NCBI GenBank assembly: GCA_030550555.1 | Contig: JAUQPD010000056.1 | Span: 1 to 56,954, forward strand | Length of the DNA: 56,954 nucleotides | Origin: Thermodesulfobacteriota bacterium | Lineage (GTDB): Bacteria > Desulfobacterota > Thermodesulfobacteria > Thermodesulfobacteriales > Thermodesulfobacteriaceae | Reading direction: 5' to 3' | In this document: positions 23,065 to 24,825 of the stretch, piece by piece | Layout of the letters: every line of letters starts with the position of its first letter | Numbering within the stretch: position 1 is the first letter of the stretch | Program-made: the position numbers and the translations under genes | The notes under the pieces: model-generated | Seen by the model: the letters and a program-made list of their open reading frames with translations, nothing else | What the model was told of the DNA's origin: nothing | Databases searched by the model: none

Positions 23065-23142
23065 TTGGTGCCTATCTCTACCTAAGCCAAGCCCTCACGA
23101 AAAGGTCTAAACTTAAAAGATTTATGAGGTATATTAATCACG

Positions 23143-24825
23143 ATGTCAACCTATTTCAAAGGTCTGTCATTTTTTATAGCTGGTCTATCCCTTGCAATCA
23201 TTTTCTCCTATCTAACAGAAAAGCCAAAAGGTAAGGGAGAGATTCCCATATTAACCACAGGAAGGCCAGAACTGTGTCTTCTCTGCCACAAGGAACGTCT
23301 ACAGGAGAAGGCCCATGCGGTTGAGATGCTTGGCTGTTCAAGTTGCCACTTGGGAAATCCTTTCACTCCCAACAAAGCTCTTGCCCACAGAGGAATGATT
23401 AGGAACCCTTCTGACCTGAGATACATTGAACGCACCTGTGGACAGCCAAATTGCCATCCTGGAGATGTAAAAAAAGTAAGAAACTCTCTAATGGCTACGA
23501 ATCATGGAATAATTGTAAGGCTCCTTAAGGTCTTTGGGGAGGAGGAAGTCCTAAGGAAATACCCAAACATAAAAGTTTCTGATCTCTACAAGAGCGAAAA
23601 GTTACTCAGGGAGAGTTTTGCTCTTGACTATTTTAGAAAACTCTGTGGATCCTGTCACCTCTATCTTGAAAAGGAGAAAATGCCTGATTTCCTTGCAGAA
23701 AAGGGAGGAGGATGCTCTGCCTGTCACCTTGAAGAGGGAGGTAGAGAACTTCTTGCAAAGGGCATTCATCCTCGCTTGAGTAAGAAAGTACCTCTTGAGA
23801 GATGCGTTCGCTGTCATAATAGAAGCGGGAGAATTGGGTTTACCTATCAGGGGCTATATGAGACAAGCCAAGGTGGTATATATGACATGAAGTGGGTTGA
23901 TGGAAGAGAACTTGTTAAGATCAAACCTGATGTTCATTTCAAGGCAGGGCTTCACTGTAGTGACTGTCATACGCGAGATGAAGTCATGGGGGATGGGAAC
24001 TTCTACCGCAATATTGCCCTGGCCCTTGAAGTAAGGTGCGAAACCTGTCATCACTGGAATTTGACAACAGAGAAGGGAAAAAGATTGGAAAATCTGGAAG
24101 TGCGAAATGGAAAGGTCTTTTTAAGGGGAAAATTTAGTGGAAAACTCCATGAAGTAAAGAGGCCCTCTGAGAGGTGTCAGGATAGATATCACAGGAGACT
24201 TACCTGTTCTGCCTGTCATTCTCATTATATGCCTCAATGTATGGGCTGTCATGTAAGATTTGATCCACGGGACAGACACTTTGACAAAATTTGGGCAAGA
24301 GAGAGGAAAGGACTTTGGGAAGAATATGAGTCCTATAGAGAGATAGAAAAACCTGTGCTTGCTGTAAAGGGAGACAAGATAGTTCCAGTTACACCAGGGT
24401 GACAGGACTTGATCACCCTTCTTGATAGAAGGGGGAGGGCCTTTAGACAGTTTCATAGTTTCACTTGGGCCCACATTGAGCCCCACTCAACTCAGCGGGA
24501 ATCTCGTTCCTGTAAAGATTGTCATCAGGATCCAAAGGTCCTTGGTCTTGGTTTTGGTCATATAACCATTAAAAATAGTACCCTTCATTTTGAACCAGTT
24601 GAAAAACCTTTTGCTCAAGTAAATGCAACTCTCTCTCAGGTAGGCACCTTTGAAGGAAAGGCGCTTGTTAAGTTCAATAGAGAAGGGATGCGACCCTTTA
24701 CGCAGGAAGAACTTGAGAGGATCTTAAAGGTTGGACTTTGTCTCAATTGTCACCCTGAAAAGGACAAGATCTTCAGGACCTGGCGCAAAAACATTAAGTG
24801 TCCTCGTTTGGGATCATTTAAGTGA
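23143..24825 (+). CDS. Twelve-haem cytochrome c, probable selenoprotein read through TGA 24400-24402
   Basis: Reading 561 codons with one in-frame TGA (codon 420) gives a 560-residue exported protein. The N-terminus (residues 6-24, hydrophobic) is a signal anchor or signal peptide. Ten c-type haem sites precede the TGA: CLLCH, CSSCH, CGQPNCH (a CX4CH), CGSCH, CSACH, CVRCH, CSDCH, CETCH, CSACH, CMGCH. Two follow it: CKDCH and CLNCH. The downstream part (24409-24825 as an isolated frame) has no signal sequence, no usable ribosome site and is in the same frame. It could not be haem-loaded alone, because haem attachment is periplasmic. The TGA context is GGG-TGA-CAG and a SECIS-like hairpin follows. 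Role: electron transfer, substrate unknown. The alternatives are a nonsense mutation or a base error. Confidence 0.8.
24413..24436 (+). promoter_or_regulatory. Candidate bacterial SECIS hairpin after TGA 24400-24402
   Basis: CCCTTCT (24416-24422), loop TGAT (24423-24426) and AGAAGGG (24427-24433) form a perfect 7-bp stem. Two further pairs (T24413-A24436, C24414-G24435) sit below one A-G mismatch. Twenty bases separate the TGA from the loop and a G is the second loop base. Both fit the published bacterial SECIS pattern as I remember it (loop 16-37 bases away, G in the first two loop positions). Confidence 0.6.

Follow-up and report, generated by a model that had tools for sequence, protein, structure and literature searches.

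In the window analysed here, a 56,954-nucleotide stretch of Thermodesulfobacteriota DNA, we identified a gene for a putatively membrane-anchored, ExtM-like cytochrome with twelve haem motifs, in which an in-frame UGA at codon 420 is almost certainly decoded as selenocysteine (Sec). We put the probability of this reading as a whole, with the steps set out below, at roughly 0.8. The gene forms one frame of 560 codons (23143-24825) whose sole internal TGA is codon 420 (24400-24402), and the pieces on either side of it, as claimed in a first-pass annotation of the same DNA, thus share a single frame. The proposal made there, that residue 420 is Sec, is borne out by the conservation of UGA or Cys at this position, by a hairpin detectable at the family level and by the presence of selA, selB, selC and selD in the genome.

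Among 53 homologue rows extracted from the same phylum, across which many more homologues were found, codon 420 is UGA in 41 (the window included) and residue 420 is Cys in the other 12, within invariant flanks (PG[U/C]QD), so that the alignment advised by the first-pass annotation always places a Sec codon or Cys here. The TGA is kept down to about 40% identity, with its flanks conserved. At the level of the order, a near full-length homologue was present in 30 of 41 genomes surveyed, 29 of these homologues having an in-frame TGA at codon 420 and one, from a congener (L007), having Cys. In the ExtM-like outgroup the equivalent position is occupied by Cys in 15 of 16 rows, and bona fide ExtM proteins, scoring above the NCBIfam cut-off, read PGCQ in 8/8, the Cys context outside the family being either PGCQ or PCQ. 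A quickly built tree of the family, with SH-aLRT values as its only measure of support, needs three changes between Cys and Sec, and is explained most simply if Sec arose once from Cys and reverted to it twice, because both the outgroup and the first-branching clade have Cys. Loss of the Sec pathway was rejected as the origin of the Cys form, since Cys-form genomes keep SelB: it was above the cut-off in 27/27 Sec- and Cys-form genomes tested and also in the Cys-form congener (G017).

Table 1. Features of the predicted Sec cytochrome gene, in window coordinates
Feature	Position	Strand	Remark
Predicted Sec-containing ExtM-like dodecahaem c-type cytochrome, UGA read as Sec, 560 aa	23143..24825	+	
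N-terminal hydrophobic signal anchor, residues 1-25	23143..23217	+	predicted from sequence MSTYFKGLSFFIAGLSLAIIFSYLT
Haem motif 1, CLLCH	23275..23289	+	
Haem motif 2, CSSCH	23335..23349	+	
Haem motif 3, CX4CH form (CGQPNCH)	23437..23457	+	
Haem motif 4, CGSCH	23644..23658	+	
Haem motif 5, CSACH	23713..23727	+	
Haem motif 6, CVRCH	23803..23817	+	
Haem motif 7, CSDCH	23956..23970	+	
Haem motif 8, CETCH	24037..24051	+	
Cys345, non-haem Cys, candidate partner of Sec420	24175..24177	+	invariant 53/53 in Sec/Cys420 family
Haem motif 9, CSACH	24205..24219	+	
Haem motif 10, CMGCH	24238..24252	+	
UGA, predicted Sec codon, residue 420	24400..24402	+	centre of invariant PG[U/C]QD
SECIS-like hairpin in mRNA, CCCTTCT-TGAT-AGAAGGG	24416..24433	+	folding and synonymous recoding
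Haem motif 11, CKDCH	24511..24525	+	past UGA
Haem motif 12, CLNCH	24739..24753	+	past UGA

The count of twelve haems given earlier holds for the full-length product and is made up of eleven CXXCH motifs and one CX4CH motif (residues 99-105); ten motifs lie ahead of the TGA and two (C457, C533) past it. Over the 53 homologues the haem motifs are 98-100% conserved, and the Cys and His positions of the CX4CH motif are kept in all 53. Pfam recognises cytochrome c7/c3-type repeats in the protein. Given its hydrophobic signal anchor, the haem domain would lie outside the cytoplasm, which suggests a membrane-anchored, extracytoplasmic cytochrome. The best match to a ribosome-binding site (GAGG) is found 13 bases ahead of ATG 23143 (23126-23143), which is rather far, and the true start of the gene may differ from this ATG. 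No PDB relative was found by sequence search and no plasmid homologue in a search for one; AlphaFold models of three sequences had a mean pLDDT of 33 and a pTM of 0.27.

Residue 420 is the one non-haem Cys/Sec position that the family shares with ExtM, and the universal conservation of Cys or Sec at this place favours a reactive role. Sec420 could, as a tentative assignment, be a redox or substrate-binding site beside a haem, acting on sulfur, selenium or a similar acceptor; Cys345, which is absent from the ExtM-like outgroup and invariant only in the Sec/Cys420 family, may be its partner. The best surviving alternative has Sec420 ligating a haem iron, or acting structurally as a selenolate, in a protein that is only a wire and has no catalytic or substrate site at this residue. 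This agrees with the number of invariant His residues outside the haem motifs, which is six (H58, H82, H209, H265, H350, H448) for twelve haems; because only these six are invariant, some haems may have other ligands. Nevertheless, we consider a ligand role unlikely, as Sec is costly and usually located at the reactive centre of known selenoproteins (PMC13188914 and general knowledge), and a purely structural ligand would have no obvious need for selenium.

Conventional gene finding would yield two ORFs of 419 and 138 aa, as expected if TGA 24400 were a true stop that ends a ten-haem cytochrome and is followed by a small, separate two-haem gene. Such an arrangement is very improbable, since it would require the same codon to be the selected split point in 41 genes, whereas the 12 homologues with Cys at this position are uninterrupted single frames and haem motifs 11 and 12 are as strongly conserved as the family values above indicate (98-100%). 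Moreover, the downstream piece has, as noted in the first-pass annotation, neither a signal sequence nor a workable ribosome site, its only start being TTG 24409, one base past AGGA (24404-24407). A natural end at residue 419 occurs in none of the examined homologues, all of which continue through UGA or Cys, and we rejected a natural stop on account of the Cys homologues.

Under the preferred reading, SelB and tRNA-Sec would read UGA 24400 as Sec by means of the hairpin just downstream. A search of the genome for the Sec genes, advised at the outset, recovered the complete set; the tRNA-Sec gene (selC) has the anticodon TCA, and the selD frame itself contains an in-frame TGA. The stem described before was found at 24416-24422 and 24427-24433 (CCCTTCT/AGAAGGG), with its TGAT loop beginning 20 bases past the TGA. 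Since the hairpin register shifts between lineages, we preferred synonymous recoding to fixed-column covariation. For each gene, the stretch at 13-45 nt, counted from the first base of the TGA, was folded and set against 1000 synonymous variants sampled according to the codon usage of that gene. The window's own hairpin is modest in this single-sequence comparison (z = -2.0, nominal p = 0.038), and the support for the hairpin therefore rests on the family. The mean z was -1.53 in Sec sequences (n=40 distinct sequences) versus -0.53 in Cys sequences (n=12), with a Mann-Whitney p of 0.0025 that overstates independence because the homologues are related, and is indicative only. When 22 positions of the folding window were scanned in the Sec set, the signal peaked at the SECIS offset (z -1.60). 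An overlapping window two codons further on gave -1.20, and no other position went beyond -0.64. Weak hairpins are present at the SECIS offset in several distant Sec homologues (L050, L055, L071, L072, L090), and hairpins at the same distance past the TGA occur in the genome's selD (z -2.5) and ExtKL (z -4.0) genes. The Cys congener (L007, genome G017) retains a stable hairpin where its SECIS would have been (z = -2.66), apparently a relic of a recent change from Sec to Cys. Rfam gave no meaningful match at the hairpin. Because 41 members keep the TGA, 12 have Cys and the hairpin excess is confined to one position, the combined pattern goes beyond chance.

The same observations bear on the possibility that UGA is translated, but as a residue other than Sec, such as Trp, through near-cognate decoding or a reassigned code. 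A code of this sort would keep the frame open, but where homologues encode a residue it is always Cys and never Trp or Arg, no gene of the Sec set is missing from the genome, UGA terminates the same frame at 24823 as well as other genes of the genome, and UGA 24400 is followed by the hairpin, all of which leaves this reading with very little probability. A sequencing error at 24400, which the first-pass annotation had named as a risk, or a pseudogene with a nonsense mutation is excluded for practical purposes, as the TGA recurs at this codon in 41 members of the family, with identities as low as some 40% and conserved flanks, and no point was found in favour of either.

In NCBIfam, the nearest family of the cytochrome is ExtM (NF040943; GSU2935 of Geobacter sulfurreducens), with 292.2 bits; as this is below the curated cut-off of 800 bits, we regard the protein as a homologue of ExtM and not as an equivalog. 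Both have twelve haem motifs, ExtM has PG-C-Q where the cytochrome would carry Sec, and Rieske and cytochrome b genes occur nearby in both groups. Conversely, the window cytochrome differs from ExtM in having predicted Sec instead of Cys, a CX4CH form of the third haem site and the additional invariant Cys345, and in the lack of a surrounding ext gene cluster. ExtKL (NF040886; GSU2937-2936) is likewise a multihaem c-type cytochrome with a UGA-encoded Sec, but it is a separate family with five haems, and its Sec belongs to an HRIPDG-U motif within a C-terminal domain that lacks haem motifs; the NF040886 model did not match the window cytochrome. The octahaem tetrathionate reductase family (TIGR04315), also multihaem and with an annotated Sec, has eight haems versus twelve, and gave no match to the cytochrome at E 0.01. 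Elsewhere in the genome there are two ExtKL paralogues (L104 7417-8655 and L103 6640-7905, both on the minus strand), one with UGA in HRIPDG-U and a strong hairpin (z -4.0), the other with Cys in HRIPDG-C. A second cytochrome, a lipoprotein-like protein of 420 aa with nine haems (L105 3538-4800, minus strand), is 34% identical to the predicted Sec cytochrome over residues 44-283 of the latter.

Within the window the cytochrome gene is solitary and belongs to no ext gene cluster; it is flanked by carD on one side and a divergent radical SAM gene on the other. The window neighbours comprise radical SAM, SSB, hemA, ccsB, CarD, PIN-TRAM, mutL and miaA. In four relatives that belong to different genera within the order (L080, L082, L083, L084), the cytochrome gene is immediately preceded by a Rieske and a cytochrome b gene, and G. 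sulfurreducens likewise encodes its ExtM alongside a Rieske protein and cytochrome b (PMC5877670). The window's genome has such a pair on another contig (L102 8306-9512, plus strand), not adjoining the cytochrome gene; this pair has no neighbouring cytochrome c gene. From these arrangements, the cytochrome may well exchange electrons with a quinol-oxidising Rieske/cytochrome b module, in which case an electron path from quinol to periplasm would run through it. A more specific scheme, which we regard as speculative and rather doubtful, has Sec420 and Cys345 forming a selenenylsulfide-type redox pair, or Sec420 touching a five-coordinate haem, with quinol oxidation by Rieske/cytochrome b then driving the reduction of acceptors of the sulfur or selenium type. 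Within this scheme, the homologous invariant Cys in ExtM would show where the ext selenite/tellurite system carries out its reaction. The literature consulted on sulfur disproportionation provided no link to that process.

Sec cytochromes as a kind are already known, as the first-pass annotation had suspected: a proposal of 2007 (PMC1914089), taken up in later papers (PMC5877670, PMC6148476), concerned GSU2937-2936, a pentahaem cytochrome with a UGA codon that is now called ExtKL. A 2026 review includes ExtKL and an octahaem cytochrome of the tetrathionate reductase family among its 119 Sec families, the latter (TIGR04315) being annotated in GenBank according to that review (PMC13188914). Neither a non-Sec homologue nor a SECIS was reported with the 2007 proposal, and the present genome supplies both the Cys-form ExtKL and the hairpin that were missing there (PMC1914089). 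The ExtM-like family is absent from the review's table of 119 families (PMC13188914) and therefore looks like a new selenoprotein family. The main text of the deep-Sep paper (PMC12013277) makes no mention of cytochromes, and a full-text search of main texts in the open-licence PMC library returned no Sec-containing ExtM. Wherever the UGA is taken as a stop, annotation probably splits Sec-form ExtM-like genes in two.

Together these results would add a Sec family, the ExtM-like dodecahaem cytochromes with 41 UGA-carrying members, to the 2026 list of 119. The exchange of Sec and Cys singles out one residue, common to ExtM, as the likely reactive centre of this cytochrome family, which makes a mutational test direct, and the conserved non-haem Cys/Sec thereby points to where a little-understood family of respiratory proteins probably has a reaction site.
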